In this document: in pieces, positions 7,625 through 45,830 of the stretch | How the letters are laid out: every line of letters starts with the position of its first letter | Numbering within the stretch: position 1 is the first letter of the stretch | Assembly (NCBI RefSeq): GCF_025997995.1 | Contig: NZ_AP026683.1 | Coordinates: forward strand, 1,984,501 to 2,048,500 | DNA from: Sediminibacterium sp. TEGAF015 | Lineage (GTDB): Bacteria > Bacteroidota > Bacteroidia > Chitinophagales > Chitinophagaceae | Direction: 5' to 3' | DNA: 64,000 bases | Position numbers and translations under genes: made by a program | Notes under the pieces: generated by a model | The model's input: the letters and a program-made list of their open reading frames with translations, nothing else | The model's database searches: none | Told to the model about the DNA's origin: nothing

Positions 7625-10600
7625 CTAAAATGAAGCCCTTAAGTTGATACCAAATTGTCTGGTTGAAGAAAGCTGACCACCTTCGCGATAGAATGTTTCT
7701 AACTCGGAAGGATCAACACCCCACTTTTTGGTTGTAGCCCAAATTAACCAGGCATTTTGAACCATGAAACCAATGTTGGCAGACTTTACAAAAGGAACCG
7801 ATTTTAATGCAGATGCAGGAATTGAATATCCGAATCTGATTTCACGAAGCTTTACATACGAACCATCTAACAATACGTTACTAGCATCACGCTGACGGGC
7901 TGTATACCAATAAGCTCTTGCAGAAATATAACGATTGTTTTCTTTACCTGCTAAAGCTCCATTGGCAAAAATACCTGGGATACGAATACCGCCATTGCCC
8001 GTATTTCCACCAGCAGTTGTATAAGAACCAGGATAATCTCTCCAATCATATCCTTTATCGTTTTTACCCACTGTTTCTTGAGATAAGCCAGTACCTGAAT
8101 TAAAGTTTCTGGTTTCAGAATAAAATAAACCACCACTCTGAAAGTCAATACTAAAAGTCAAATCAAATGATTTGTACTTCAATGAATTGAACATACCACC
8201 TGTAAACTTGGGCAACACAGTTCCGATTTTTTGATTGATATCATATAATGGCTGACCTGTTGCATCAATTAACGTTTGTCCTGTTGTTGGATCAGTTCTC
8301 CATTTTCTACCATAATAGGTCCCCCACTCACCACCAACTCTATGCTCTAATCGAGTATCATAGCGATTGGTAGCGTATAAATAGGTGTTGATTCCTGGAG
8401 CCAATTCTTTTACGCTATTTTGATTTTTTGCCCAGTTTAAACTAACATCCCAGCTAAAGTTTCTGGTTTCAATAGGCTTACCACTAAGCGTAATTTCAAT
8501 ACCCTTGCTTTGGATATTGCCTGCATTGATTTGTGCTGTTGAGAATCCACTTGCAGGTGTTACATCAATTCCTAAAATCTGGTCAGTATTGTTGTTCTGG
8601 TAATAAGTAACATCTAAGCCAATCTTCTTGAACAAACGCAATTCAACACCAAACTCATAGGCTTTGGTTAAAGCAGGACGAATACCGCCTCCTTTAAATT
8701 GGTTGCCTATGGTTGCAGAAGGATTGGTTCCATAGAAGGATCCATTTCCAATAGCCAAGTTCAATGCATGAGCACCTAAGTCTGATCCAACACTGGCATA
8801 TGAAGCCCTCAATTTACCATAAGTTAACCAGCTAGATTTGAGCAATTCAGTGAAGATGAAGCTGGTGCTTAAGGAAGGATATAAGTAAGAGTTACTTTGT
8901 GAAGGCAACGCAGATGACCAATCATTACGCAAAGTACCTTCCACAAATAACATATCTTTCCAACCAACAGACGCTTTTCCTAAAACAGAATTCACCGTTT
9001 TCTTTTCATAGGAGCGGCTTACACTTGGTCTTGAAATAGAAGCGGCAATATCAAAATAATTTGGAGAACTTAATCCTCCTTCAGTAGCCATTGACAATGC
9101 ACTATAACTGTTTTTACGAACGTTGCCGCCCACCATAGCATCTACAGAAAAATCACCAAATTTATTCTTGTACATGATATTGGTTTCGTAGTTCATTTCA
9201 GAATATCGATCCTGTGAAATACTAAAATAATCCAAGGTTAGTGCACCTGTTGGCATTCTGCCAGTATTCTCATTATTGTAGGTATTCGCTCTTACATAAG
9301 AAACAATATTTAGGTGTTTATTGATCTTGATATTCATACCAACATTCCCTACCAACCTGTTTTGTGCTTGTGTAGAGAAAGCCTCATAAGCCATGAAGTA
9401 AGGATTATCCCAGTATTGAGGTCTGCCATATACTTTTATGTCTGCACTTGCATTGGGATCACCTATATTCCATGAATTTAAACTACCATCTGGCTCTCTG
9501 TAATTCTGCATGCGTTTCATGTCTAACTGACGCTGAAACCATTGGTTAAAATTCTGTGTAATATTTAATCCATCTAAACGATATCCTTCAGCAGGTTTAC
9601 CTTTTGTACTATTGGTAGTATAGGTGAGATCAGTAGAAATAGTGATGTATTTACCAATATCGAATGAACCGTTCAACGCCAATTGATGTTGATCTCTATT
9701 GGCATTTGGTATCATCAAACTCCTGTTTTGATTGGCATACGTCATTCTGAAATTGTAGCCTTCTCCCCCAGATGAGAATGAAACAGAGTTGTTTTTGTTG
9801 ACACCTGTTCTAAAGAAATCGCGTACGTTATTGGGCTGAGCAACCAATGGAGTCAACTGACCAAACTCAGCTCCAGGATACCAGCTCCAATATGCGCGAT
9901 AATTGTCTCCATTCATTTTAGGACCCCAGCTTTCATCGGCACCATACTCTAACATACGCTGTCCATTAAAAGCAGCCCATGAGGCAGGATGGATAGCAGG
10001 ATTGTATTTAAACAAATAAAAACCTTGGGCATCAAATGCAGTACCAGCAGAAGTTAATGCGGAAGAATATCCACCAGCATATTCATTTTGGTATGGCGGT
10101 AATAAAGCCAGCTTTTCAAAAGTTAATCCAAGATTCACATCAACACTGGTAAATTTCTTGCGAGAACCTTTTTTAGTAGTAATTACAACCGCACCATTGG
10201 CAGCACGTTGACCATATAAAGCTGTTGATGCAGGTCCTTTTAATACAGAAACACTTTCAATATTATCTAAGATGACCGCAGACTGGTTAGTGATGGTTCC
10301 GTCTACTACAAAAATCGGTGCTTGAGGCCCCAATCCTGTAACACCACGAATCAATATATCGGCATTATCAAAAGTAGAACTAGGAGACCCTACTAACTGA
10401 ATACCTGCTACTTTACCGGCTAAAGAAGTACTAATATCTAAAGATTTCGCAACAGTTAGGTTTTCGCCTTTTACTTCTTGAACTGCATAACCAAGCGCTT
10501 TTTTCTCTCTTTTTACCCCTAAAGCCGTAACAACCACTTCACTTAAGTTATCTACAGCTTCTTTCATTTTAACGGAAGCCGCTTTTTCTGCTGGCAATTC

Positions 10601-10837
10601 TACCATCCCAAAACCAGTGGCAGTAAACTGCAGCACGGCATTTGGAGATACAGAAATCATAAAATTGCCCTCCCCATCAGCACTTACAGCATTTTTAGTG
10701 CCTTTCTCTTTAACAGTAGCTGAAGGTACACCTACTCCATTGGTGTCGGTAACCTTACCTCTAACTGTTGTTTTTTGCGCATAGGTAGTATTCATAATAA
10801 GAATAAAACCCAGCATCAACAACAAAATTTTTCTCAT
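7625..10837 (-). CDS. SusC/RagA-type TonB-linked outer membrane transporter
   Basis: A 1070-residue TonB-dependent importer. Residues 1-20 are the signal peptide; 22-95 a carboxypeptidase-regulatory-like (CarboxypepD_reg) domain opening with VRGKVTD; 110-220 the plug, with the SusC-type segment NIESVSVLKGPASTALYGQR; the rest is the beta-barrel, ending in a terminal Phe. It is first in a two-gene operon with the SusD partner. The 253-base upstream gap is AT-rich; I found no exact -7 consensus in it. Missing sigma/anti-sigma neighbours and the short plain N-terminus argue against ECF-type transenvelope signalling. Confidence 0.95.
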   Translation of the reverse strand: MRKILLLMLGFILIMNTTYAQKTTVRGKVTDTNGVGVPSATVKEKGTKNAVSADGEGNFMISVSPNAVLQFTATGFGMVELPAEKAASVKMKEAVDNLSEVVVTALGVKREKKALGYAVQEVKGENLTVAKSLDISTSLAGKVAGIQLVGSPSSTFDNADILIRGVTGLGPQAPIFVVDGTITNQSAVILDNIESVSVLKGPASTALYGQRAANGAVVITTKKGSRKKFTSVDVNLGLTFEKLALLPPYQNEYAGGYSSALTSAGTAFDAQGFYLFKYNPAIHPASWAAFNGQRMLEYGADESWGPKMNGDNYRAYWSWYPGAEFGQLTPLVAQPNNVRDFFRTGVNKNNSVSFSSGGEGYNFRMTYANQNRSLMIPNANRDQHQLALNGSFDIGKYITISTDLTYTTNSTKGKPAEGYRLDGLNITQNFNQWFQRQLDMKRMQNYREPDGSLNSWNIGDPNASADIKVYGRPQYWDNPYFMAYEAFSTQAQNRLVGNVGMNIKINKHLNIVSYVRANTYNNENTGRMPTGALTLDYFSISQDRYSEMNYETNIMYKNKFGDFSVDAMVGGNVRKNSYSALSMATEGGLSSPNYFDIAASISRPSVSRSYEKKTVNSVLGKASVGWKDMLFVEGTLRNDWSSALPSQSNSYLYPSLSTSFIFTELLKSSWLTYGKLRASYASVGSDLGAHALNLAIGNGSFYGTNPSATIGNQFKGGGIRPALTKAYEFGVELRLFKKIGLDVTYYQNNNTDQILGIDVTPASGFSTAQINAGNIQSKGIEITLSGKPIETRNFSWDVSLNWAKNQNSVKELAPGINTYLYATNRYDTRLEHRVGGEWGTYYGRKWRTDPTTGQTLIDATGQPLYDINQKIGTVLPKFTGGMFNSLKYKSFDLTFSIDFQSGGLFYSETRNFNSGTGLSQETVGKNDKGYDWRDYPGSYTTAGGNTGNGGIRIPGIFANGALAGKENNRYISARAYWYTARQRDASNVLLDGSYVKLREIRFGYSIPASALKSVPFVKSANIGFMVQNAWLIWATTKKWGVDPSELETFYREGGQLSSTRQFGINLRASF

Positions 10838-14134: not shown

Positions 14135-15063
14135 GTAGATTAGTCAGTTTTGTTATTCCAGCTTGCAACGAAGAAAAGAATATTCCTGTAATTGTTAAGG
14201 AAATTGCCGCTATAATGGATAGCCTTCCTTATGCATATCGCTTTTTGTTTGTTGATGATGGTAGCAGCGACCATACACTTTCTGTTTTACAGCAGCTCTC
14301 AAAAGAAAATCAACATGTTCAATACCTGAGTCTATCCAGAAATTTTGGACACCAGAATGCCCTGAAGGCAGGTCTGGACCATGCTGAAGGAGACGCGGTG
14401 ATTATGATGGATGCGGACCTGCAACATCCGCCGGCTTTAATCCCACTGCTATTGGAAAAATGGGAAGAAGGAACCGACATGGTATATACCATTAGAAAAG
14501 AACAGGAAGATTTGTCTTTACTAAAAAGGAAAACCTCAGCACTTTTCTATGATGTAATTAACAATATGTCTGACATTGAACTGGAACAAGGCACTGCCGA
14601 TTTCAGGTTAATGGATAAAAAAGTAGTAGATGCATTCAGGCAATTAAGAGAGCACGAACTATTTATCAGAGGACTGGTAAAATGGATGGGGTTCAGTCAG
14701 GCAGGCATTGCTTATATTCCTTCTGCTCGTTTATCAGGCACTTCTAAATACACCATTAAAAAAATGGTAAGATTTGCCTTACAGGGAATTACATCTTTTA
14801 GTACAAAGCCCTTGTACATGGCGGCTTATCTTGGATTTAGCTTCGCATTTTTATCTGTACTTTATATTCCGTACATCATTTACAGTTTTTATCAGGGACA
14901 TACCGTTTCAGGTTGGGCATCCATCATTGCTGCCATAGCTTTTTTCGGGGGATTACAACTGATGATTCTCGGAATCATCGGACTCTATCTGGGCAAACTG
15001 TTTATGCAAAGTAAAAACAGACCGCACTACTTTATCAAAGAAAGAAGTTGGGATCATGCATAA
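14131..15063 (+). CDS. polyprenyl-phosphate glycosyltransferase, GT2 (GtrB/DPM1-like)
   Basis: A 310-residue GT2 enzyme that should load a sugar onto polyprenyl phosphate. Nucleotide-sugar motifs VDDGSSD and MDADLQHP lie in the N-terminal half; ADFRLMDKKVVDAF and SGTSKYTIKKM are typical of the DPM1/GtrB/ArnC group; two C-terminal hydrophobic segments anchor it. The ATG at 14131 is preferred over an upstream one at 14059 because it begins directly at the GT2 fold and gives the usual ATGA overlap with the preceding stop. It overlaps the deacetylase gene by 8 bases. Confidence 0.88.
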   Translation: MSRLVSFVIPACNEEKNIPVIVKEIAAIMDSLPYAYRFLFVDDGSSDHTLSVLQQLSKENQHVQYLSLSRNFGHQNALKAGLDHAEGDAVIMMDADLQHPPALIPLLLEKWEEGTDMVYTIRKEQEDLSLLKRKTSALFYDVINNMSDIELEQGTADFRLMDKKVVDAFRQLREHELFIRGLVKWMGFSQAGIAYIPSARLSGTSKYTIKKMVRFALQGITSFSTKPLYMAAYLGFSFAFLSVLYIPYIIYSFYQGHTVSGWASIIAAIAFFGGLQLMILGIIGLYLGKLFMQSKNRPHYFIKERSWDHA

Positions 15064-15826
15064 AAAGGTGTTTCTAAGTTTTGATGTAGAAGAGTTTGAT
15101 ATGCCGCTGGAATACCAACACAATATTTCTGTGGAAGATCAGATGCGTATAGGTATAGAAGGGCTTGATGCTATTCAGCCTTTATTAGATATGGTTCCAG
15201 CTACTTTGTTTACTACAGCTAATTTTGCCAATCATTTTCCTGAGCGCATTCGTTCGCTTTCTGAAAAACATGAAATTGCTTCCCATACTTTTTATCATAC
15301 AGATTATGAAACTGCAGACTTATTAAAGTCAAAACTGAGATTGGAAGAAATAACCGAAAAAAAAATAACTGGCCTGCGTATGCCACGCATGCGTCCAGTG
15401 TTAATGAAAGATGTATTGGAAGCAGGGTACCAATACGACTCCTCTATTAATCCAACATGGTTACCAGGTAGGTACAACAATTTTCATTTACCCAGAACCG
15501 CATACAAAGAAGGAGGCGTTATCAGAATTCCCGCTTCAGTTAGCCCAGGCATCCGTATACCCTTATTTTGGCTGAGTTTCAAGAATATACCCTATGTCAT
15601 TTATAAGCAACTATGCTTACAGACATTGGCAAAAGATGGCTATCTCTGTTTGTATTTTCATCCCTGGGAATTTACTCCGATTGAACCTTATGGTCTGCCA
15701 GCATATACTCGCCGTTGGTGTGGTCCCAATCTGGTTGAGCAACTGATGCAGTTGGTAAAAGATTTAACTAAGGAAGCCGATTTTGAAACAATGAATCAGT
15801 TTGGATTTCCCGTATTGAACAGTTAG
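15056..15826 (+). CDS. polysaccharide deacetylase family protein (NodB-like)
   Basis: A 256-residue CE4-type hydrolase without signal peptide, so probably cytosolic or membrane-associated. Motif 1 is SFDVEEFD, motif 2 is the metal-binding HTFYH, followed by GLRMPRMRP and YFHPWEF near the C-terminus; the order fits the DUF3473/PuuE-like subgroup. Sitting last in an operon with a polyprenyl-phosphate GT2 and a GT-C enzyme, it likely deacetylates or deformylates a lipid-linked amino sugar, by analogy with ArnD or NaxD. That role is inferred. Confidence 0.82.
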   Translation: MHKKVFLSFDVEEFDMPLEYQHNISVEDQMRIGIEGLDAIQPLLDMVPATLFTTANFANHFPERIRSLSEKHEIASHTFYHTDYETADLLKSKLRLEEITEKKITGLRMPRMRPVLMKDVLEAGYQYDSSINPTWLPGRYNNFHLPRTAYKEGGVIRIPASVSPGIRIPLFWLSFKNIPYVIYKQLCLQTLAKDGYLCLYFHPWEFTPIEPYGLPAYTRRWCGPNLVEQLMQLVKDLTKEADFETMNQFGFPVLNS

Positions 15827-21771: not shown

Positions 21772-24267
21772 CTAATTGATCAACTCATCAATTCGCTTAA
21801 TTGCATACCCTTTATTACGCAATAGCCGAATAATTGCGGGCAGTTCATTGTAGAGTTTTTCTTTCCGTCTGGGGTCAGAACCCACGTGTAACAATAAAAT
21901 ATTGCCATTCAATTTTCCAGGGGTTGCTGCCAAATCTTTTAGCTTATTCATCAACGCTGCATTGGATTGGTAACTATTTCCCATTTCGGGCCATGTATAG
22001 TCTGCATTTGTATAGGTTCCCGGGGTAAAACTAAACAAACGGAGTCCGCTCCAATCACACCAGCTGGCCACACTGTCATTCCACCATTCATAAGGTGGAA
22101 CAAATAACTTACTGCTACGTGTATCAATTCCCAGGTCTTCCATGGCCTGAAAATTTTTCTTCAAATCTGTATTAAAAGAATCATAGCTTACCAATAACTG
22201 ATTCCGATTTGTCCAATCATTGTAGAGCATATGATTGTTACTATGTGCTCCCAGATAATGATTGTTTTTTTGCAAAGCTTTTATACCTTTTGTAAATGCA
22301 GGATTACGATAAAATCTTCCGGTGAAAAAGAAACCAGCTTTTACTTTTTCGCGGGCCAGTATCTGTTCAACCGTTGTTAATCCCTCTGCATATTCATCTC
22401 CTGTAAAAACCAATGCCACAGAAGGTTCTGTTGGATTCAGCGATTTAACAACAGCTCCCATTTGATAAACAGGAATGGAAACGGGGGTTGCTCTCGCTTC
22501 CTGCTCCTTGGCTGCAAGCAGATATACTAAGCTGGCAGTTCCATCCATGGTAGGTTCATTGGTACTGTAATCGCCATAGTCATCATGATACACAGCCAGA
22601 TTACTTTGGAATTCAGCATATTCATCGGGATCATTCAATTGAATACCAATGAGGTTTTTATAAATGCTGGTATAAACAGGTCCATCCACCAGTCCTCCGT
22701 TGATTGGATAATTCTTAATATGCGTAAAAGCAGAATGTGGATCTACGGGAGTATCGCCCCATTCGGGCAATCCATATACCATACTGGTACCCCAAGGATT
22801 GCAACCAAACAACCAATCAATATTCGCCTGCTCCAATTCATCAAATTCTTTACTTCCGGTTAAATTGCTGTACCACAAACATTGAATGGCAAAAGACACT
22901 GTCAGATTATTGCTACACCAGATAAAAGGAACCCCTCTGTAAAAAACATTTTGTTTTGCTTTATTCCAAACTGCATCAATCCCATTTCTATAAAACTGTA
23001 TAACTGTATCCCGTCTCTTGTCTTTTAATTGTTTGGCCAGCTCATAATGTCCCAGGTTAATAAATGGATACCATTGATAATGACTGGCAGTATCTTTACC
23101 TAACCAGGGAGTAAGCGGTTCCTGCAAAGCATATTGAAAAGCTTTATCAGCTGCAGTCTGATCTTTTGGAATCAGCATAGCAGAAGCGAGCTCCATATCA
23201 TCTACCCAATTGTCTTCGGCATAGATATACGGTGAACGAACAGAAGCCGTTTGAGTTACGCCAGGTTTAATTAGCGCATAATGAAAGGCAGACAAAGATT
23301 TGGAAGCATATAAATCTGCCTGTGGTGTGCCTTTAAAAAGAACAGAGGCTAATGAAAAGGCTGCACTGAACTTGGCTGCAGTAGAACTGGTTCCTTTTGT
23401 GTTATTTAAAAATTTACCTCGTTGCTGCGGTAAACCATTAATGAAATATACGGGTCTTTCAAATCCTCTTCCGTAATAAGCATCTTCTTTGGGAATCCGC
23501 ATACTCATATGATCTCTGTCATCTGCTAGTTGGTTAAACATCCAGTCTTTTCGGGGATGCATTTTTACCAGCCAATCCAAACCCCATTTGGCTTCATCCA
23601 GAATATCTGCCCGATTATTTTTCCCTTTCAATCCATTCGAATCAAACTGATCAATGAATACATTTTTGAAATCTCTGTAAGCAGCCAACAGATGAAAAGT
23701 TGCATTGGCAGTGGTGGTACTGTACTGCAAATAGTCACTGGCGTCATGCCATCCACCACTGGCATCAATAATTGTACTATCCGGCAACCCTGCATCAGCT
23801 CCGTACAAAGTATATCCATCCTTTGTATGACAACTGTCTTTCAGAAACGGATTGTACCCACTGCGCTGCTGACGCATATATTGTAAACAAAAGTCGGCCG
23901 TACCCTTATACACCTGATCGTCAATCCTGAATGCGGGAGACTTTACTCCACCTGCCTTAATATAAAATTTACCCTTCCCCTTGTACGCACTGAAATTAAG
24001 GCGGTAACCCATTGCAAAAGGGCCATATGCACCAAAACGCTGGCCAACAGTAGTCTTAAACACCACTTGATTTGACGCTGCATTAATTAATTCAAAATAG
24101 GTAATGGAAGCTTGTTCCTTACTAACGTACACGGCCACTTTTGAACCCATTGGTTGATACCCTAGCTGGTTAATCCTAATCCAACTATTTTCTTTTGCAA
24201 AAAGTTTACCTGCAAAAAAAATCATAAGTGCAGTAAAAAGCACCCGATTAAAATTCAATTTATTCAT
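21772..24267 (-). CDS. secreted GH9 glycoside hydrolase fused to a C-terminal NodB-like deacetylase domain
   Basis: An 831-residue exported enzyme. Residues 1-24 form a signal peptide; 27-115 a CelD_N immunoglobulin-like domain (RINQLGYQP); 120-585 a GH9 (alpha/alpha)6 domain. The catalytic-base motif is GWHDASDY, with Asp175 and Asp178 and a Ser for the usual Gly; the acid is Glu571 in TNEPTMDG. Residues 616-831 match a polysaccharide deacetylase fold: FTGDEY at motif 1, metal-binding HSNNH (675-679), VPPYEWWN and LLLHVG. GH9 enzymes cleave beta-1,4-glucans or related polymers. Pairing with a deacetylase points to an N-acetylated or O-acetylated substrate, which is inference. It is monocistronic. 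Confidence 0.88.
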   Translation of the reverse strand: MNKLNFNRVLFTALMIFFAGKLFAKENSWIRINQLGYQPMGSKVAVYVSKEQASITYFELINAASNQVVFKTTVGQRFGAYGPFAMGYRLNFSAYKGKGKFYIKAGGVKSPAFRIDDQVYKGTADFCLQYMRQQRSGYNPFLKDSCHTKDGYTLYGADAGLPDSTIIDASGGWHDASDYLQYSTTTANATFHLLAAYRDFKNVFIDQFDSNGLKGKNNRADILDEAKWGLDWLVKMHPRKDWMFNQLADDRDHMSMRIPKEDAYYGRGFERPVYFINGLPQQRGKFLNNTKGTSSTAAKFSAAFSLASVLFKGTPQADLYASKSLSAFHYALIKPGVTQTASVRSPYIYAEDNWVDDMELASAMLIPKDQTAADKAFQYALQEPLTPWLGKDTASHYQWYPFINLGHYELAKQLKDKRRDTVIQFYRNGIDAVWNKAKQNVFYRGVPFIWCSNNLTVSFAIQCLWYSNLTGSKEFDELEQANIDWLFGCNPWGTSMVYGLPEWGDTPVDPHSAFTHIKNYPINGGLVDGPVYTSIYKNLIGIQLNDPDEYAEFQSNLAVYHDDYGDYSTNEPTMDGTASLVYLLAAKEQEARATPVSIPVYQMGAVVKSLNPTEPSVALVFTGDEYAEGLTTVEQILAREKVKAGFFFTGRFYRNPAFTKGIKALQKNNHYLGAHSNNHMLYNDWTNRNQLLVSYDSFNTDLKKNFQAMEDLGIDTRSSKLFVPPYEWWNDSVASWCDWSGLRLFSFTPGTYTNADYTWPEMGNSYQSNAALMNKLKDLAATPGKLNGNILLLHVGSDPRRKEKLYNELPAIIRLLRNKGYAIKRIDELIN

Positions 24268-37248: not shown

Positions 37249-37301
37249 GCAAGACAATATTTTACAAATTTCATTATATTCATACTTCACAATTGCTCCA
37301 T

Positions 37302-38762
37302 ATGAAAAAGAAAGAAAATCCAGAAAAACAATCAGCTCAAAACAATTCCAGGCGTTCCTTCCTAAGGAATGCAGGCCTTGCTGCAGCAGGGTTTTACATT
37401 GTACCACGTCATGTATTAGGACGAGGTTTTATTGCCCCAAGTGATAAACTCCAGATTGCAGGTATTGGTGCAGGAGGAAAAGGAGAAAGTGATTTATGGA
37501 GTTTCTATAATAGCGGCAAAGCAGATATTGCATTTTTGTGTGATGTAGACGACAGACAATCTAAAAAAAGTAGGGAACGTTATCCTAAAGCAAAATACTA
37601 CAAAGACTACAGAGAGATGCTCGACAAAGAGCACAAATACATTGATGCAGTTTCTGTATCAACACCCGATCATATGCACGCCATTCAAGGCCTGGCTGCT
37701 ATGCAACTGAAAAAGCATGTATACATTCAAAAGCCCTTGTCTCATAATATTTCTGAAGCAAGAGAACTTACAGAAGCAGCTCATAAATACCAAGTAGTAA
37801 CACAAATGGGCAACCAGGGTGCCAGTGGTGATGGCGTAAGAAAACTAATTGATTGGTACAATGCCGGATTAATTGGTGATGTACATACTATTTATTGTTA
37901 CACAGATCGTCCGGTATGGCCACAAGGAGTTGGTTGGCCTACTACCAAAGGAACTGTTCCGGAAGGTTTAGATTGGAATCTATGGCAAGGGGTTGCACCA
38001 GCCAAAGATTATGTTGATGGATTACTTCCTTTCAACTGGAGAGGTTGGTGGGATTACGGTACCGGTGCATTAGGTGATATGGCTTGTCATATCATGGCAC
38101 CTGCATTTGCTGTATTAGGATTAGGATATCCTGTATCTGCAGAATGTAGTGTTGCTACCCGATACCTCCAACCATGGACCCGTGCTTACTATCCTGAAAG
38201 TTGCCCAACAGCTTCGCATATCATTTTAACCTTCAAAGGAAAAGACGGCAAGCCCGATGTGAAACTACATTGGATGGATGGTGGTATTCAACCTGCTCGT
38301 CCTGAAGAGTTAGGACCTAATGAAATGATGGGTGATGGTGGCAACGGAGCCATCTTTGAAGGAACCAAGGGTAAAATGATTTGTGGAACATATGGTGCAT
38401 TACCTAACTTATTGCCTACTTCTAAGAGTAAGGAATACGACAATGTACCGCAAACCATTAAGCGTGTACCTAAAGGAGACAATGGTCACTATGCTGCATG
38501 GGTAGAAGCGGCTATTGCAGGATATGGATCTGCTCAGGCAAAAGAACTCAGCTCTAACTTTGATATCGCAGGTCCTTTAACAGAAAGTGTTTTGATGGGC
38601 AACCTTGCCATCAGAAGTTTTGATATTCAAAAGAAAGCTGCTTCAGGTAGAGTTTCTTATCCAGGTAGAAATATCAAATTACTTTGGGATGGGCCAAACA
38701 TGAAGATTACCAACTTCGACGAAGCCAATCAATTTGTAAGAAAGGAATACAGAACCTTCTAA
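37302..38762 (+). CDS. Tat-exported Gfo/Idh/MocA family oxidoreductase
   Basis: A 486-residue NAD(P)-dependent sugar oxidoreductase. The N-terminus carries a twin-arginine motif, SRRSFLRNAGLAAAG, pointing to Tat export with cofactor bound. GIGAGGKG is the dinucleotide loop, IQKPLSHN corresponds to the EKP motif, and the C-terminal half has the long Bacteroidota/Planctomycetes form with GDMACHIMAPAFAVLG. The ATG at 37302 is preferred to a TTG three codons earlier. It ends opposite the convergent Tat-type isomerase gene, sharing a terminator region. Role in keto-sugar handling is inferred from the neighbours. Confidence 0.88.
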   Translation: MKKKENPEKQSAQNNSRRSFLRNAGLAAAGFYIVPRHVLGRGFIAPSDKLQIAGIGAGGKGESDLWSFYNSGKADIAFLCDVDDRQSKKSRERYPKAKYYKDYREMLDKEHKYIDAVSVSTPDHMHAIQGLAAMQLKKHVYIQKPLSHNISEARELTEAAHKYQVVTQMGNQGASGDGVRKLIDWYNAGLIGDVHTIYCYTDRPVWPQGVGWPTTKGTVPEGLDWNLWQGVAPAKDYVDGLLPFNWRGWWDYGTGALGDMACHIMAPAFAVLGLGYPVSAECSVATRYLQPWTRAYYPESCPTASHIILTFKGKDGKPDVKLHWMDGGIQPARPEELGPNEMMGDGGNGAIFEGTKGKMICGTYGALPNLLPTSKSKEYDNVPQTIKRVPKGDNGHYAAWVEAAIAGYGSAQAKELSSNFDIAGPLTESVLMGNLAIRSFDIQKKAASGRVSYPGRNIKLLWDGPNMKITNFDEANQFVRKEYRTF

Positions 38763-38775
38763 TTTAAGGAGATTG

Positions 38776-38806
38776 TAAAAAAGGGCTAGCAGTATTTGCT
38801 AGCCCA
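38776..38806. terminator. terminator between convergent sugar genes
   Basis: A perfect 9-bp stem (38783-38791 with 38797-38805) and GTATT loop; the - strand side has a run of six T, so it mainly ends the 42958-38834 operon, and may also stop the + strand gene. Confidence 0.8.
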
Positions 38807-38833
38807 TATCAATTTGCTATGAAGCAGTAAAAA

Positions 38834-39703
38834 TTAAATTGAAAACACTTTCATATAAGCCGCATTCTTTTCTGCGCTCTCCATTGGGTTCGTACCAGTA
38901 AATGCTTCCTGTTCTACAATATGGTGTTTCATACCATATTTCTGCATTTGACCAAGGATCTTTTTGAAGTCGATATCGCCCTTTCCAATCTGGCAAGACT
39001 CAATACCTTTTGCGGTTTTGGTCTGGTCTTTAACATGACAGAGTCTAAAACGATTCGGATATTTTTTAGCCCAAGCAACAGGATCTTCATTAGCGGCAAC
39101 CACCCAATAAATATCCATTTCAAAGTCAACCAGTCCGGCATCCGTTCCTTCCATCATAACTGTTTGCGGCACTAATCCATCCAATACCTTAAAGGAATAA
39201 TCATGGTTATGATACGCAAAACGAATTCCGTTTTTCTTACAAATTTCACCGCTCTTATTGAACTCGTCATTGAAGCGTTTGAAATTGTCAATTGACTTCT
39301 GTGGCCCTTTGTAAGGACAAATCAGGTATTTAACGCCAACTTCTGCTGCTTCTGCCGCTTTTCTTTCAAAGTCAACAGTATTATTGCTATGTGCAGAGAT
39401 CAGTGACATACCCAGGTCGTCCATGTATTTTTTAAACTCTGTATTTTTCCAGCCCCAGAAAAATCCTTTGGGACCTTCAAAACTTTCAATTTGCTTGTAA
39501 CCATAAGACGAAAGTTTTGCCAAAGTACCTTTAGCATCTTTCATCATATCTTCTTTTACAGTCCATAACTGTAAACCAAAAGCAGAGAGCTTTTTGGTTT
39601 CTCCGAAACTGGATAAGAAATTGGATTTACCTGCAAATGGCAAACTCAAACCTGCAGCCGCAAGGCCTGCTGTTTTTAAAAAATCTCTTCTATTGTTGCT
39701 CAT
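38834..39703 (-). CDS. Tat-exported sugar phosphate isomerase/epimerase family protein
   Basis: A 289-residue TIM-barrel protein of the xylose-isomerase-like AP_endonuc_2 group. It begins with a Tat signal, NNRRDFLKTAGLAAAG. Metal-site regions visible are FAYHNHDYSF, VDFEMDIYWV, CHVKDQTK and HHIVEQEAF. Despite the family name, an exported member is unlikely to act on phosphorylated sugars; a free keto-sugar or 3-keto-glycoside is more plausible. It is last in the - strand operon with the GMC dehydrogenase. Confidence 0.86.
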   Translation of the reverse strand: MSNNRRDFLKTAGLAAAGLSLPFAGKSNFLSSFGETKKLSAFGLQLWTVKEDMMKDAKGTLAKLSSYGYKQIESFEGPKGFFWGWKNTEFKKYMDDLGMSLISAHSNNTVDFERKAAEAAEVGVKYLICPYKGPQKSIDNFKRFNDEFNKSGEICKKNGIRFAYHNHDYSFKVLDGLVPQTVMMEGTDAGLVDFEMDIYWVVAANEDPVAWAKKYPNRFRLCHVKDQTKTAKGIESCQIGKGDIDFKKILGQMQKYGMKHHIVEQEAFTGTNPMESAEKNAAYMKVFSI

Positions 39704-39790
39704 AATTAATTTATTGAAGCCGTGTACAAAATAAATTCAAAAGCCATGCCATTTTATTTTTTAGCCAAAGGCTTTGGTTTGATTGAGCTA

Positions 39791-40336
39791 CTAGGTAGCC
39801 CAGGCCTTATCGCCTTTTTTATACTCGGTACATCCTTCAAACTTACCTGGCACTGCTACATAACGCAATACTTTGGTGGCACCCACTTCTGAAGTAAAGA
39901 AGCCCCATAAAGTAAGCTCTTTCATCATTCTGAAATAATGCGGAAGCTCCTCGGGCTTTTTCTTTTCCTGAAAAGCTTTTGCTTCTGCATCAAGCTCAGT
40001 AAGCATTTTGGTGCGTTCTTCTGCTGAAGCTTTCATAAAGTTGGTTCCTTTTAATTTGGCCATTCCTTCCATAAAAACTTTTGCTTCTTCCGGTTTATAA
40101 CAATCTTTTACAATTACCGTCATAAACTCACCCACGTTGGCTTCTTTAGCACCTGGGGTATCTGTTTTAGGAAGAATGGTTTCGGCAACTTCATTTAAAA
40201 ATGCAATGTCTTCAGGTGTAAAAGCAACAGCATCTCCTGCAGTTGATTTACAACCAGACAAAAATGCCTGAGAGCCTAAAATGGTTCCGCCTAATAATAG
40301 CGCAACACTGGATAATGCTTCTCTTCTATTCATCAT
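39791..40336 (-). CDS. gluconate 2-dehydrogenase subunit 3 family protein
   Basis: A 181-residue small subunit of membrane-associated sugar/alcohol dehydrogenases. It starts MMNRREAL and continues into a hydrophobic stretch ending in LSGC, a Tat-like signal with a lipobox. The mature part shows AFTPEDIAFLNEVAETILPKTD, the hallmark of the family. In FAD glucose dehydrogenases the matching gamma subunit carries the Tat signal and exports the catalytic subunit with it. Here the GMC gene lies directly upstream (21 bases) and has no signal peptide, fitting the same arrangement. Confidence 0.9.
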   Translation of the reverse strand: MMNRREALSSVALLLGGTILGSQAFLSGCKSTAGDAVAFTPEDIAFLNEVAETILPKTDTPGAKEANVGEFMTVIVKDCYKPEEAKVFMEGMAKLKGTNFMKASAEERTKMLTELDAEAKAFQEKKKPEELPHYFRMMKELTLWGFFTSEVGATKVLRYVAVPGKFEGCTEYKKGDKAWAT

Positions 40337-40357
40337 GGTATAATGCGTTTAATAAGT

Positions 40358-42037
40358 TTATAAATTTCCTTTTTTCAATTCACTAACGGCAAAATCTACA
40401 GCTCTTGCAGTGAAAGCCATATAGGTTAAAGATGGGTTTACACATGCTGAAGATGTCATGAATGAACCATCGGTAACAAATACGTTTGGTGCATCCCATA
40501 TTTGATTGTGCTTATTTACTACAGATGTCTTAGGATCAGCACCCATTCTGGCAGAACCCATTTCATGGATACCTCTACCTAATACACCATTGGCGTCATA
40601 GCCTTTAACATCTTTAACACCAGCATTGGTAAGCATTTCAATGGCATCTGCCTGCATGTCTTTACGCATTTTGAGTTCGTTCTCTTTTAACTCTGCGTCA
40701 ATTTTCAGCACATTCAAGCCCCACTTGTCTTTCACTGTTTTGTCGAGGGTCACAAAGTTTTTGTGATCAGGTAAAACTTCTCCGAAGCCCATGATTCCCA
40801 TTGACCAGCCACCTGGTTCTGAAATTGCTTCCTTGAATGCAGCACCAATGGTAGCTTCCGCAACATTGCTACCCCATCCACCTCTGTTACCACTTCCTTG
40901 ATATCCAAAGCCTCTTAAATATTCACGTTTATCATTACCAACATTCTGGTAACGTGGAATATAAATACCATTCGCTCTTCTACCGAAAGTATATTTGTCT
41001 TCATAGCCTTCAACACGTCCACCAGCGCCAACGCCTAAGTGGTGGTCCATAATATTATGACCCAATTCACCACTGCTACTTCCCAATCCACCTTCCCATA
41101 CATCCGTTGCAGAATTCATCAGAATCCATGCAGAATTTAAAGTAGATGCATTCAAGAAAACAATCTTTGACTTATAAACATAGGTCTTGTTGGTTTCTGC
41201 ATCTAGTACTTCAACACCAGTTGCACGCTTGGTGTCTTTATCGTATAAAATCTTGGTTACAATGCTCCAGGGTCTTAGTGTTAGATTGCCGGTTTTCATC
41301 GCCGCAGGCAAAGTAGAACTCTGCGTGCTGAAATAAGCACCGAAAGGACACCCTAGCCAGCATTTATTACGGAACTGACAAGCAGATCTTCCTTCAATTT
41401 CTTTAGTAAGGTTAGCAGTACGTCCAATAATCATGGCACGCTGTCCCTTATAATATTCCTGCAAACGCTTAGCAACATCTTTTTCAACACAGGTCATTTC
41501 CATCGGAGGCAAAAACTGTCCATCTGGTAAAACAGACAAACCATCTCTGTTTCCACTGATCCCTGCAAAACGCTCAACATAATCGTACCATGGCTCAATC
41601 TCTTTGTAACGAACAGGCCAATCAACGGCAATACCATCTTTAGCATTGGCTTCAAAATCTAAATCGCTCCAGCGATAGCTCTGGCGCCCCCACAACAAAG
41701 AACGACCACCTACATGGTATCCTCTGAACCAGTCGTATCTTTTAACTTCTACATATGGGCTTTCCTGATCGTTTACCCACATGCCATACGTTTGTTCGTT
41801 CAAAGGATAGTCGCGGTTCAGTACTGGATTTTGCGCAATCATTTCCTGGGTTTTTCTTCCGTGGTGCGGATAATCCCAGGCCTCCTTATTGGCATTCACA
41901 TAATCCTTTACGTGTTCAATGTTACGACCTCTTTCGAGCATCAATACTTTTAAGCCTTTCTCGGTTAGCTCTTTTGCCGCCCAGCCGCCGCTGATGCCAG
42001 AGCCAATCACAATCGCGTCAAAATTTTGTTCAGCCAT
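40358..42037 (-). CDS. GMC family FAD-dependent sugar dehydrogenase (putative glycoside 3-dehydrogenase)
   Basis: A 559-residue flavoprotein. The FAD loop is VIGSGISGGWAA (residues 10-21); the catalytic His491 is in GIHEMGS and Asn534 in NPSLTY. Residues 220-230 hold a CX5CX3C cluster (C220, C226, C230), as in FAD-GDH and LacA-type enzymes that bind a 3Fe-4S cluster. No signal peptide is present, so export probably depends on the subunit 3 partner. Family knowledge: GMC plus subunit 3 oxidises sugars or glycosides, in some at C3, passing electrons to a cytochrome c; one is encoded at 45430. Confidence 0.88.
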   Translation of the reverse strand: MAEQNFDAIVIGSGISGGWAAKELTEKGLKVLMLERGRNIEHVKDYVNANKEAWDYPHHGRKTQEMIAQNPVLNRDYPLNEQTYGMWVNDQESPYVEVKRYDWFRGYHVGGRSLLWGRQSYRWSDLDFEANAKDGIAVDWPVRYKEIEPWYDYVERFAGISGNRDGLSVLPDGQFLPPMEMTCVEKDVAKRLQEYYKGQRAMIIGRTANLTKEIEGRSACQFRNKCWLGCPFGAYFSTQSSTLPAAMKTGNLTLRPWSIVTKILYDKDTKRATGVEVLDAETNKTYVYKSKIVFLNASTLNSAWILMNSATDVWEGGLGSSSGELGHNIMDHHLGVGAGGRVEGYEDKYTFGRRANGIYIPRYQNVGNDKREYLRGFGYQGSGNRGGWGSNVAEATIGAAFKEAISEPGGWSMGIMGFGEVLPDHKNFVTLDKTVKDKWGLNVLKIDAELKENELKMRKDMQADAIEMLTNAGVKDVKGYDANGVLGRGIHEMGSARMGADPKTSVVNKHNQIWDAPNVFVTDGSFMTSSACVNPSLTYMAFTARAVDFAVSELKKGNL

Positions 42038-42076
42038 GTTAGATGTTTATGCTTTGATGGTTTAAAAAAATAGATA

Positions 42077-42958
42077 TTAAATATTACAGATGTCAATTGC
42101 TTTTTTTAATGAGCCCAGTTTGTCTTTTGCCACTGGAATGAATTCCTGTGCCACATATCCTTTGAAGCCCGTATCTACTATCGCTTTCATAATGGCAGGG
42201 TAATACAATTCCTGTGACTCATCAATCTCATGTCTACCGGGCACACCAGCAGTATGATAGTGACCTATATAGGCTGCATTGTTTCGGATGGTTCTGATAA
42301 CATCGCCCTCATCAATTTGCATATGATAGATATCATAGAGCAGTTTAAAATTCTCCGAACCAATTTCTTTGCAAAGAGCAACGCCCCAGGCAGTCTTATC
42401 GCACATATAATCTTTGTGGTCAACTTTACTATTCAGCAGCTCCATGATGATAGTAACGCCTCTTTTTTCTGCAAGCGGCATAATTTTTTTTAAACCCTCC
42501 GCTGCATTTTTTAATCCAACAGCATCGTCCATCCCATTTCTGTTTCCACTGAAGCAAATCAGGTTTTTATAGCCGGCATCTGCTACCAGATTAATATGTT
42601 CTGTATAGTTTTTAATTAATGTAGCATGGTACTGAGGATCGTTCCATCCCTTAACCAGACTGATTTCTGCGCCATTACACATGGTAGAAACCATGCCATG
42701 CTTTTTTAAAGTTGGCCAATCTTTAGGACCCACTAAATCAATTCCGGTAATACCTATTTTTTTTGCTTCAATACACAATTCATCTAAAGTCAATCCATCA
42801 AAGCACCAACGGCAAACTGCGTGATTTATATTCCCTTTCATAGTTGTTGAGGCCGTAGCGCAGGACGCTAAGGACGGAATCAGGGGTGTTGCAGCAACTG
42901 CAACAGATCCTGTAATAATGTTTTTAATGGCAGACCGCCTATTGGATGATTTTTTCAT
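42077..42958 (-). CDS. exported hydroxypyruvate isomerase-like TIM-barrel protein
   Basis: A 293-residue sugar isomerase/epimerase with an export signal: NRRSAIKNIITGSVAVAATP followed by SLASC, which reads as a Tat motif plus lipobox. The barrel resembles Hyi/hydroxypyruvate isomerase-like proteins: LLYDIYHMQIDEGDV, GHYHTAGVPGRHEID and VAQEFIP line the metal site. It is the first gene of the operon 42958-38834 and is 39 bases from the GMC gene. An exported isomerase implies a periplasmic substrate such as a keto-sugar. Confidence 0.87.
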   Translation of the reverse strand: MKKSSNRRSAIKNIITGSVAVAATPLIPSLASCATASTTMKGNINHAVCRWCFDGLTLDELCIEAKKIGITGIDLVGPKDWPTLKKHGMVSTMCNGAEISLVKGWNDPQYHATLIKNYTEHINLVADAGYKNLICFSGNRNGMDDAVGLKNAAEGLKKIMPLAEKRGVTIIMELLNSKVDHKDYMCDKTAWGVALCKEIGSENFKLLYDIYHMQIDEGDVIRTIRNNAAYIGHYHTAGVPGRHEIDESQELYYPAIMKAIVDTGFKGYVAQEFIPVAKDKLGSLKKAIDICNI

Positions 42959-43070
42959 ACAGCATTCAGAACCCTAATATAAATATTTGTTTGCAGTAAA
43001 CTTCTATGAATTATATAAAATGTTCAAGAAGGCATTCGATTCGGTAAACAAATAACAAGAATGAATCCAG

Positions 43071-43099
43071 TTCATTAAATGAATATAATCGCCGATTAT
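43071..43099. promoter_or_regulatory. two adjacent perfect palindromes between divergent sugar operons
   Basis: TTCATT-A-AATGAA (43071-43083) and ATAATCG-C-CGATTAT (43085-43099) lie side by side in the 189-base gap between the two operons. They look like operator sites for a dimeric regulator that could control both directions; no regulator gene is encoded in the locus. Confidence 0.5.
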
Positions 43100-43147
43100 G
43101 ATTAAATTAGAGGCGCATAACCAAACAATAAATTAAAAAATATACTT

Positions 43148-44314
43148 ATGGCTAGAAAATTAAGAATGGGAATGATTGGCGGAGGAAAGGATGCGTTTAT
43201 TGGCGCAATCCACCGTCTTGCCGCCAATATGGACGGTCAGATTGAATTGGTTTGTGGTGCATTAAGCATCAATCCAACCATCGCCCAGGAATCGGGAGAA
43301 ATGTTATTTCTGCCACAGGATCGTATTTATATGACCTATGACGAAATGATTAGCAAGGAAGCAGCATTGTCTGCAGACAAAAGAATGGATTTTGTAACGA
43401 TTGTTACGCCCAACTTCGCCCATTTTACACCGGCCATGATGGCGTTGGAGCACGGTTTCCATGTTGTAATTGAAAAACCAATCACATTTACACTGGAAGA
43501 AGCCAAGCAATTAAAAGCCAAAGTGGAAGAAACTGGTTTAACACTATGCTTAACGCATACTTATTCAGGCTATCCAATGGTAAAACAAGCAAGGGCAATG
43601 GTAGCCGAAGGTGCATTGGGTAAAATCAGAAAAGTATGGGTGGAGTATCCGCAAGGCTGGTTGAGCAAGCTAAGTGAAAGAGAAGGCAATGCGCAGGCAG
43701 CCTGGAGAACCGATCCTAAAAAATCTGGAAAGAGCGGAAGCATGGGAGATATTGGTACCCATGCAGCACATTTGGCTGAATATGTAACCGGGGCTCAAAT
43801 CAGTAAAATTTGTGCCGACTTAAATACCAAAGTAGAAGGTAGAATGCTGGATGATGATGGATCTGTATTGTTACATTTTAACAATGGCGCATCGGGTGTA
43901 TTGATGGCATCTCAGGTTGCTGCGGGAGAAGAAAACGCGCTAAAAATAAGAGTATACGGAGAAAAGGGAGGTTTAGAATGGGCGCAGATGGAACCCAATA
44001 CCTTAATTGTAAAATGGCTGGAAGCCCCGATGCAGATTTTACGTGCAGGAGCCAATTACACCGATCGTTTATCCAGCTTTGCTACTAGCAATTGCAGAAC
44101 GCCCGGCGGACATCCGGAAGGTTACCTGGAAGCTTTTGCCAATATTTATAAAAATTTCGCTGCAACGGTACAGGCTAAAATTGAAGGCCGCACCCCTACC
44201 AAAGAACAACTGGATTTTCCAGGTGTTGAAGATGGAATCAGAGGTATGGCATTTATTGATAATGTAGTGGCATCTGCCAACTCAGATGTTAAATGGACAG
44301 AACATAAAATATAA
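43148..44314 (+). CDS. cytosolic Gfo/Idh/MocA family oxidoreductase
   Basis: A 388-residue oxidoreductase without signal peptide. GMIGGGKDAF is the nucleotide loop, VIEKPITFT the EKP motif with its conserved Lys, and GDIGTHAAHLAEY contains the conserved His. It fits enzymes that reduce keto-sugars or oxidise sugar hydroxyls with NAD(P). It heads the + strand operon 43148-47065 and is followed after 3 bases by a TIM-barrel isomerase. Reduction of imported 3-keto-sugar in the cytosol is the proposed role (inference). Confidence 0.9.
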   Translation: MARKLRMGMIGGGKDAFIGAIHRLAANMDGQIELVCGALSINPTIAQESGEMLFLPQDRIYMTYDEMISKEAALSADKRMDFVTIVTPNFAHFTPAMMALEHGFHVVIEKPITFTLEEAKQLKAKVEETGLTLCLTHTYSGYPMVKQARAMVAEGALGKIRKVWVEYPQGWLSKLSEREGNAQAAWRTDPKKSGKSGSMGDIGTHAAHLAEYVTGAQISKICADLNTKVEGRMLDDDGSVLLHFNNGASGVLMASQVAAGEENALKIRVYGEKGGLEWAQMEPNTLIVKWLEAPMQILRAGANYTDRLSSFATSNCRTPGGHPEGYLEAFANIYKNFAATVQAKIEGRTPTKEQLDFPGVEDGIRGMAFIDNVVASANSDVKWTEHKI

Positions 44315-44317
44315 TTC

Positions 44318-45373
44318 ATGACCAATATTAAAGGACCAGGCATTTTCCTGGCGCAGTTTATGGGCGATACAGCCCCGTTTAATTCATTGTCATCTATTTG
44401 CCAATGGGCAGCTTCTTTGGGTTTCAAAGGAGTACAAATCCCCTCTTGGGATGCACGTTGTATCGATTTACAAAAAGCAGCAGAAAGCAAAACCTATGCA
44501 GATGAAATCAGAGGGATTGTTGCTGCCGCTGGATTAGAAATCACTGAACTTTCCACGCACTTGCAAGGACAATTGGTAGCGGTAAACCCTGCGTATGATG
44601 CTCTATTCGATGGCTTTGCACCAGATGCTGTAAGAGGAAATCCAAAGGCAAGAACTGAGTGGGCAGTTCAACAGTTAAAATATGCAGCCAAAGCTTCCCA
44701 AAACCTGGGACTCAATGCACATGCTACTTTCAGCGGTGCTTTGTTGTGGCAAACGGTTTATCCATGGCCACAAAGACCAGCTGGTTTAGTAGAAACAGGA
44801 TTTACAGAATTAGCTAAAAGATGGATGCCCATCCTACATGAGTTTGATGCAAATGGCGTTGACCTTTGTTATGAAATTCATCCGGGCGAAGATTTACATG
44901 ATGGCGTTACTTATGAAATGTTTTTAGATAAAGTAAACCATCATCCACGTGCTTGTTTATTATACGACCCCTCCCACTTTGTGTTACAGTGTCTCGATTA
45001 TAAAGCCTATATAGATCACTATCATGAACGCATTAAAATGTTTCATGTAAAAGATGCCGAGTTCAATCCTACAGGAAAGCAAGGAGTATATGGTGGCTAT
45101 CAGGGTTGGGTAGAAAGAGCTGGAAGATTCAGATCATTGGGAGACGGACAGGTAGATTTCAAAACCATTTTCAGTAAACTGGCACAGTATAACTATACTG
45201 GCTGGGCAGTAATGGAATGGGAATGTGCATTAAAGCATCCGGAGACCGGTGCTGCAGAAGGGGCTCCTTTTATTCAGCAACATATTATTCGAGTAACAGA
45301 TAAAACATTTGATGATTTTGCTGGTACCGGATCGGATGAAAATTTTAATAAAAGAATATTGGGTATCAACTAA
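44318..45373 (+). CDS. cytosolic sugar phosphate isomerase/epimerase family protein
   Basis: A 351-residue TIM-barrel protein lacking a signal peptide. Metal-ligand strands are visible: CYEIHPGEDLHDG, LLYDPSHFVLQ, MFHVKDAEF and AVMEWECALKHPE. The longer form with this C-terminus is common in Bacteroidota beside Gfo/Idh/MocA genes. It follows the oxidoreductase by 3 bases and precedes the cytochrome gene by 56. Substrate unknown; sugar or keto-sugar epimerisation is likely. Confidence 0.88.
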   Translation: MTNIKGPGIFLAQFMGDTAPFNSLSSICQWAASLGFKGVQIPSWDARCIDLQKAAESKTYADEIRGIVAAAGLEITELSTHLQGQLVAVNPAYDALFDGFAPDAVRGNPKARTEWAVQQLKYAAKASQNLGLNAHATFSGALLWQTVYPWPQRPAGLVETGFTELAKRWMPILHEFDANGVDLCYEIHPGEDLHDGVTYEMFLDKVNHHPRACLLYDPSHFVLQCLDYKAYIDHYHERIKMFHVKDAEFNPTGKQGVYGGYQGWVERAGRFRSLGDGQVDFKTIFSKLAQYNYTGWAVMEWECALKHPETGAAEGAPFIQQHIIRVTDKTFDDFAGTGSDENFNKRILGIN

Positions 45374-45429
45374 CTTTAACCACGCTATTTTGAATAACAG
45401 CTAGCGTATCACCATTTAAACGAACGATT

Positions 45430-45825
45430 ATGAAAAAGTACTTAGTACTATTTGCCATCACTGGATTAGTTGCTGCAGCTTGCGGTGGCAGTGAAGAAAA
45501 GAAAGATGAAAAAGCAGCAGAACCTGCTGCAACAGCGGCTCCTGTAGCAGATCTTAGTAGCAACCCTGATTACACAAAGGGATTAGAACTGGTTGGTAAA
45601 TCAGACTGCTTAACCTGTCACAAAGTGAACGATAAACTAATTGGACCATCTTATAAGGATGTTGCAAACAAATACGAAGCTACAGAAGAAAATATCAGTA
45701 TGCTGGCCAGCAAAATCATTAAAGGTGGTAAAGGTGTCTGGGGAGAAATACCAATGACTCCGCACCCACAAATTAGTGAAGAAGATGCGAAGGCAATGGT
45801 AAAATATGTTTTACTCCTTAAGTAA
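45430..45825 (+). CDS. c-type cytochrome lipoprotein
   Basis: A 131-residue class I cytochrome c. The signal ends in a lipobox with Cys18 (VAAAC), then an acidic Lys/Ala-rich linker to about residue 42, and the haem site C60-LT-C63-H64. Met109 in IPMTPHP is the likely sixth ligand. As a membrane-tethered periplasmic carrier it could take electrons from the GMC dehydrogenase encoded by the divergent operon; this is inferred from clustering. Confidence 0.92.
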   Translation: MKKYLVLFAITGLVAAACGGSEEKKDEKAAEPAATAAPVADLSSNPDYTKGLELVGKSDCLTCHKVNDKLIGPSYKDVANKYEATEENISMLASKIIKGGKGVWGEIPMTPHPQISEEDAKAMVKYVLLLK

Positions 45826-45830
45826 GCTAC

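Follow-up and report, generated by a model that had tools for sequence, protein, structure and literature searches.

A widespread GH9-NodB fusion protein in Bacteroidota and its possible role in amino-sugar glycan breakdown

As a matter of routine, a GH9 gene is scored as a cellulase gene. A gene in the stretch of DNA analysed here (64,000 nucleotides from Sediminibacterium sp. TEGAF015, hereafter the window) encodes a GH9 domain and a NodB-like domain on one exported chain. This raises two questions: whether such a protein acts on cellulose or on an amino-sugar glycan, and whether its NodB part may still act as a deacetylase. The host genome is a single 3.06-Mb contig, in which the 831-residue frame is intact and the GH9-NodB protein has a single match. 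The gene and its parts are as follows.

21772..24267, minus strand: whole gene for an exported GH9-NodB protein of 831 residues (open frame, Pfam, homologues)
24196..24267, minus strand: predicted signal peptide, residues 1-24 (by eye, lipobox Cys absent; the model has a hydrophobic helix at 6-22)
23938..24192, minus strand: CelD_N Ig-like domain, residues 26-110 (Pfam PF02927, E 5.8e-20)
22516..23910, minus strand: GH9 (alpha/alpha)6 catalytic domain, residues 120-584 (Pfam PF00759, E 2.2e-62; structure match to 3x17)
21775..22455, minus strand: NodB-like domain, residues 605-831 (Pfam PF01522, E 1.4e-9; own model; 4m1b match)

The initial annotation had described one exported chain with these three domains, and the Pfam searches of both halves agree: CelD_N, Glyco_hydro_9 and Polysacc_deac_1 all exceed their gathering scores, Glyco_hydro_9 with 212.3 bits against a cut-off of 27.7 and Polysacc_deac_1 over residues 612-734. 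An AlphaFold2 model of the full chain, built from 45 sequences, has a mean pLDDT of 86 and a pTM of 0.72. The protein would be periplasmic or secreted; since its start is Sec-like, has no lipobox Cys, and no type IX (T9SS) sorting domain was matched in the Pfam scan of the 831 residues, a periplasmic location is likely.

Is the fusion peculiar to this genome? A search with the full protein finds matches at E 1e-10 in 142 of 294 family genomes, a count that includes other GH9 proteins, and in 83 of 296 genomes drawn from the phylum. Many genera have full-length relatives that are about 50-65% identical. The nearest named ones belong to Sediminibacterium, and in Sediminibacterium sp. C3 (L059) the GH9 domain is 94% identical and fused too, so that the fusion is not an assembly accident. 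We also rejected the idea of a rare or local event, the relatives being widespread and fusion not special to its own genome, and that of a phage origin, for which the one weak match in 'phages' reaches 24% over 29% of the query.

Among the best 80 of 549 NodB-profile loci, all confirmed, the two parts are fused in 60 and encoded by nearby genes in 13; the other 7 have NodB but no GH9 within the stretch. On a tree of 150 GH9 domains (99 fused, 18 adjacent to NodB and 33 alone), made with FastTree only and containing long branches, the fused or not-fused label changes at least 28 times, 18 of these changes being forced by well-supported branches; fusion and fission have thus both happened many times. 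Among the 80 loci, the label 'adjacent' comes from a tblastn match at L094, L101, L109 and L113, where ORF calling yielded nothing for NodB; at L136 other ORFs separate the GH9 and NodB genes. Seen across Bacteroidota, then, fused genes are common, and in many cases the two halves are separate genes instead, either adjacent or far apart.

In the window itself the gene stands alone, within a conserved neighbourhood that holds no sugar genes. A fumarylacetoacetase-like and a TIGR02757-like gene, so named from their sequences, each lie near GH9-NodB in 24 of the best 80 of the 549 loci. The same fumarylacetoacetase-like neighbour accompanies a GH9 gene without NodB in another genome of the genus (G216; L189, 9102-10940). 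The rest of that genome has no NodB match either, which means that this lineage either lost the domain or never acquired it. A fused GH9-NodB with DAGD occurs in a Pyrinomonadaceae MAG, named as an acidobacterium (L107; NodB match at 10001-10654). NodB also has a second kind of partner: in three genomes it is fused to a Beta-lactamase2-type serine hydrolase instead of GH9, giving proteins of 623-647 residues that were found by phmmer in all three cases and by Pfam in L234.

L234, 4574-6517, minus strand: NodB-Beta-lactamase2-type fusion
L235, 3120-5027: NodB-Beta-lactamase2-type fusion
L236, 3774-5645: NodB-Beta-lactamase2-type fusion

NodB and Beta-lactamase2-type genes are neighbours in L106, L173 and L175. 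In the open-licence literature we found no description of a fusion between GH9 and a polysaccharide deacetylase and no paper linking GH9 to peptidoglycan and MurNAc; a search for NamZ returned only unrelated papers.

In the predicted model, the GH9 part fits 3x17 best (VIA-align; Z 33.2, rmsd 3.2, 508 aligned, 25% identity), followed by CelD (Z 31.9), BoGH9A (Z 31.3) and the Vibrio glucosaminidases (Z 28.0-28.7). The closest solved GH9 structures are therefore endoglucanases rather than the glucosaminidases. Two features of the active site are as follows.

23734..23745, minus strand: DASD, residues 175-178, with both catalytic Asp retained and Gly replaced by Ser
22555..22557, minus strand: Glu571, candidate GH9 catalytic acid (in NEPTMDG)

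DASD had been read as a changed base motif; it is present, at residues 175-178, but both aspartates are kept (D175 in 147 and D178 in all of the 149 near rows of the alignment), and we rejected a lost catalytic base on these grounds. Position 177 is Ser in 139 and Thr in 10 near rows, and Gly in 10 and Ser in one of 11 more distant rows. Lying between two conserved aspartates in the near rows, this Ser or Thr makes DASD a mark of the clade. E571 is found in 148 of the 149 near rows (one gap) and in 11 of 11 far rows; residues 564-570, just before it, have a pLDDT below 50. All 160 rows (149 near and 11 far, with L056-L058 duplicating the distant rows L160-L162) share R251, D252, H253 and R271. 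Judged by its residues, the inverting machinery of GH9 is present, the Asp pair and the Glu being kept.

The chain reads H511-S512-A513 where GH9 signature 1 of the cellulase type (a PROSITE pattern) has H-x-R. Arg is found at position 513 in none of the 160 GH9 rows. This absence, together with the single match to the protein in its own genome and with the amino-sugar operon partners and the NagA and MurQ co-occurrence reported below, speaks against a beta-glucanase paired with an acetyl esterase, in which GH9 would cut cellulose, xyloglucan or an acetylated glucan and NodB would remove O-acetyl groups. We regard this alternative as unlikely, even though the closest solved relatives are endoglucanases and the xyloglucanase BoGH9A, CE4 domains are known joined to xylanases (excerpt of PMC4928363) and to a GH8 (excerpt of PMC6247017), and the NodB model has acetylxylan esterases in its list of structural matches.

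That model, built from 49 sequences for the NodB part by itself (pLDDT 95), aligns best with BA0150 (4m1b; Z 25.9, rmsd 1.6, 194 aligned), then with the PgdA Bc1960 (Z 24.1), BA3943 (Z 23.1-23.5) and PdaA (Z 22.2). Pfam and structure matches together thus identify the C-terminal half as a NodB domain by both sequence and structure. A C-terminal half unlike CE4 in structure would have refuted the initial reading, and this outcome did not occur with the predicted model. Four motifs are as follows.

22393..22410, minus strand: VFTGDE (residues 620-625), the motif 1 region, where CE4 has TFDDG
22231..22245, minus strand: motif 2 HSNNH, residues 675-679, with the two metal His
22090..22101, minus strand: motif 3 VPPY, residues 723-726, without the CE4 Arg and followed by invariant Glu727
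21886..21888, minus strand: His794, the motif 5 His (137 of 137 rows)

CE4 enzymes are expected to have a tandem Asp, two His, an Arg, an Asp and a His (excerpt of PMC10967932). Two of these are missing here, the tandem Asp of motif 1, where the family has FTGDE or FTGHE, and the Arg of motif 3, so the domain is NodB-fold and CE4-like and not a canonical CE4. The initial annotation had called the metal residues intact on the basis of HSNNH. The motif is there, at 675-679, and its two metal His are kept, but motif 1 has FTGDE for TFDDG and motif 3 has VPPY for RPPY. An intact deacetylase site was not found: the domain lacks both the catalytic Asp and the Arg that CE4 enzymes have. Of its two nearest solved relatives, BA0150 is described as catalytically inert (excerpt of PMC10967932) and the structure entries of BA3943 are titled as a CE4 pseudoenzyme.

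We may then ask whether NodB is a dead deacetylase, serving GH9 as a glycan-binding or docking module. The two missing residues and the two best structural matches just named are consistent with this, as are the 12 of 119 GH9 genomes without NodB, one of them of the same genus and at the same site. We nonetheless consider it doubtful, because a decayed site is not expected to keep such residues as these. H675, S676 and H679 are kept in 135 of 135 ungapped rows, and E727, D756, H794 and R801 each in 137 of 137 NodB rows; D756 is the candidate for the motif 4 Asp that in CE4 pairs with the motif 5 His. Position 624, one ligand candidate, is D in 96, H in 26, G in 4 and A in one of 127 ungapped rows, hence D or H in 122; position 625 is E in 117, D in 7 and other residues in 3. 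The Arg of RPPY is replaced at position 723 by L in 77, I in 54, V in 3 and M in 3 of 137 rows. The other invariant residues argue against simple decay, and a free NodB gene, overlapping nagA, exists at two loci (L241 and L242). For the domain as a de-N-acetylase we see an even chance.

Domain-only searches of the 294 family genomes found GH9 in 119 and NodB in 109, with both in 107, GH9 only in 12 and NodB only in 2. NodB thus hardly occurs without GH9, since 107 of its 109 genomes hold both. In raw counts, which ignore genome size and kinship, NagA is encoded in 112 of the 119 GH9 genomes vs 71 of the 175 others, and MurQ in 115 of 119 vs 88 of 175; genomes lacking both number 0 of 119 with GH9 vs 83 of 175 others (raw counts again). 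The genome under study encodes MurQ, AnmK, NagA and two NamZ. Its MurNAc salvage region does not lie near the GH9-NodB gene; there (L243, 7658-9325) MurQ comes immediately after a BadF-type kinase ORF, and NamZ_N is matched about 8 kb away.

Elsewhere in the family the neighbours are more telling. GH9, ROK, MFS, SIS and NagA form an operon in three loci (L172, L174 and L186), with GH18 also nearby in L174, and a fourth has the same order with no NagA (L191). A GH9-NagA operon occurs in L170, nagA adjoins GH9 in genome G049, and nagA overlaps the free NodB gene in L241, where NagA exceeds the TIGR00221 cut-off, and in L242; genome G134 has the same nagA and NodB neighbours by position. In L156, SusD-like, GHL10, phosphoesterase, GH9, NodB, MurQ (above the TIGR00274 cut-off) and SSF genes lie on one strand. 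The fused gene is accompanied by GH18, ROK, MFS and SIS in L140 and adjoined by Amidase_3 in L153; a PIG-L deacetylase-type protein and SSF are found in L152. At L169, GH9 lies with MFS, ROK and a GH2 bearing an exo-beta-D-glucosaminidase Ig domain (PF18368, E 1.7e-29). In Chitinophaga, SSF, MurQ, AnmK and a DeoR regulator are divergent from the fused gene, a set with the same kinds of parts as the Tannerella murTKQ operon (excerpt of PMC5790795). Pontibacter has GHL10 and Amidase_2, and MurQ too in two loci.

A simple neighbour count gave 51 of 840 genes vs 3 of 297 (Fisher P 1e-4), with families picked after seeing the loci and with loci partly related (Chitinophaga, Pontibacter); because of this we prefer an unselected Pfam tally. 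From 159 operon genes 145 were kept, and 110 after removal of near copies; L161, L162 and L164, high-GC loci at which the ORF caller took antisense frames, were left out, as were proteins of more than 1100 residues and rows with N stretches. The 110 operon partners include ROK 4, MFS 4, Amidohydro_1 3, GHL10 2, SIS_2 2, Beta-lactamase2 2 and NagA_N 2, none of which is among the 25 families listed for 110 control genes; ROK, MFS, amidohydrolase/NagA, GHL10 and SIS are at or near the top among the partner families listed. On the other side, most of the 149 loci have no amino-sugar gene within three genes; the 27 that do come from a restricted number of genera. There are also neighbours that point away from amino sugars: SGLT-type symporters at L190 and L192 and an FGGY-like kinase at L185 (names by eye), a rhamnosidase-like protein beside NodB at L171, and a GH92 at L141.

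Several of these partners would also suit a housekeeping role, in which the protein would work at division on denuded strands of the peptidoglycan of its own cell, in the manner of E. coli DigH and SddA, which act on such strands (excerpts of PMC12288456 and PMC12440217). GHL10, Amidase_2, Amidase_3 and Beta-lactamase2 are neighbours, and NodB resembles PdaA, PdaB and PgdA. We find this improbable, more so than the two alternatives above: operons with importers, kinases and NagA indicate catabolism, as do the TonB/SusD-like genes, GH18 and GH2 glucosaminidase nearby, and the GH9 gene is missing from 175 of the 294 family genomes.

Other observations concern the surroundings. A gene for a MurC-like Mur ligase (L197, 11629-13005) comes straight after GH9 and NodB genes; its score of 321 bits is slightly below the murC cut-off of 335. 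A second polysaccharide-deacetylase-like ORF of the window (15056-15826, plus strand), with the start SFDVEEFD by eye, ends a glycosyltransferase/methyltransferase-like group. At 37293-46619 of the window, GMC-type oxidoreductase, sugar isomerase/epimerase-like, Gfo/Idh-type and DUF1080-like ORFs (by eye) perhaps serve keto-sugar or cyclitol breakdown.

Gene context and genome co-occurrence agree with each other and support the substrate first suggested for this protein, an amino-sugar glycan rather than cellulose, and on balance we lean towards such a role for the family. For the GH9 domain in particular, an amino-sugar substrate is slightly the better bet. It is also precedented, since Vibrio GH9 enzymes prefer (GlcN)2 to cellobiose as the substrate that they cleave, their pocket showing no structural reason for this (excerpt of PMC6096475). 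In the scheme that we infer, as to the activity of either domain, the exact substrate, the order of steps and the exo or endo mode alike, a periplasmic or secreted two-domain enzyme of Bacteroidota would dismantle beta-1,4-linked amino-sugar oligosaccharides, which may be chitin fragments, peptidoglycan glycan fragments or both. GH9 would cut the glycosidic bond by inversion, using Asp175/Asp178 and Glu571. NodB would be a metal enzyme, its ligands being His675, His679 and Asp (or His) 624, and would remove an N-acetyl group, so letting the GH9 pocket take or release the sugar, as in the GlcN-preferring Vibrio glucosaminidases; such a GH9 would be provided with substrate by a deacetylase that converts terminal GlcNAc to GlcN. 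MFS or sodium symporters would bring the products into the cell, where they would pass to ROK/AnmK kinases, MurQ and NagA. The presence of NagA and MurQ genes suggests that some sugars enter still acetylated, so that deacetylation may concern one chain residue only. We put the whole scheme, from GH9 cleavage and NodB deacetylation to import and the action of kinases, MurQ and NagA, forward tentatively, at less than even chance.

A bolder hypothesis, which we find somewhat less probable than that scheme, is that a Bacteroidota-wide GH9 clade left cellulose for a dedicated salvage of MurNAc/GlcNAc glycans, with a paired or fused NodB domain that deacetylates through a rearranged site. D/H624 and the two His would hold the metal, and Glu625 or Glu727 would replace the Asp-Arg pair of CE4; one chain would then deacetylate and next cleave peptidoglycan or chitin fragments. 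If the clade, present in 119 of the 294 family genomes, acts on amino-sugar glycans, the cellulolytic potential of many Bacteroidota is overestimated and a candidate is at hand for a step of chitin or cell-wall recycling. The NodB part is a natural case in which to ask if deacetylation by a CE4-like fold is possible when the tandem Asp and the Arg are lacking.

Compared with known systems, GH9-NodB is a widespread variant of known enzyme kinds. GH9 exo-glucosaminidases exist in Vibrionaceae (VC0615, PBPRA0520 and VP2484); they share the GH9 fold with an N-terminal beta domain and an amino-sugar pathway, at about 17-18% identity to the GH9-NodB protein, and the excerpt of PMC6096475 describes a two-domain fold with no NodB. 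In VC0615 a helix 9-10 loop of 39 residues (404-442) blocks the pocket behind subsite -1 (PMC6096475, same excerpt), whereas the predicted loop here has about 14 (438-451 in the model), so that an exo mode is not indicated. The CelD_N-type endoglucanases and BoGH9A share the CelD_N-GH9 order, and 3x17 is the best fold match; unlike them, our protein family has no Arg two residues after His511 (160 rows), another operon context and an extra NodB domain. With PdaA, PdaB (BA0150) and PgdA (Bc1960), the NodB part shares its fold (Z 22-26), HSxxH and the motif 5 His, and differs from them in having no motif 1 tandem Asp and no motif 3 Arg and in its additional invariant E727 and R801. The Vibrio chitin oligosaccharide deacetylase (COD/DA1; 4nz1, 3wx7), whose substrate is chitobiose and whose CE4 motifs are canonical, also has the NodB fold, but it has a longer chain and is a much weaker match (Z about 16) than PdaA, PdaB or PgdA. 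DigH is of the GHL10 kind, genes for which adjoin some members of the GH9-NodB family. The excerpted accounts of DigH and SddA describe a glycosidase and a deacetylase that act on denuded peptidoglycan in E. coli, as separate proteins of other families.
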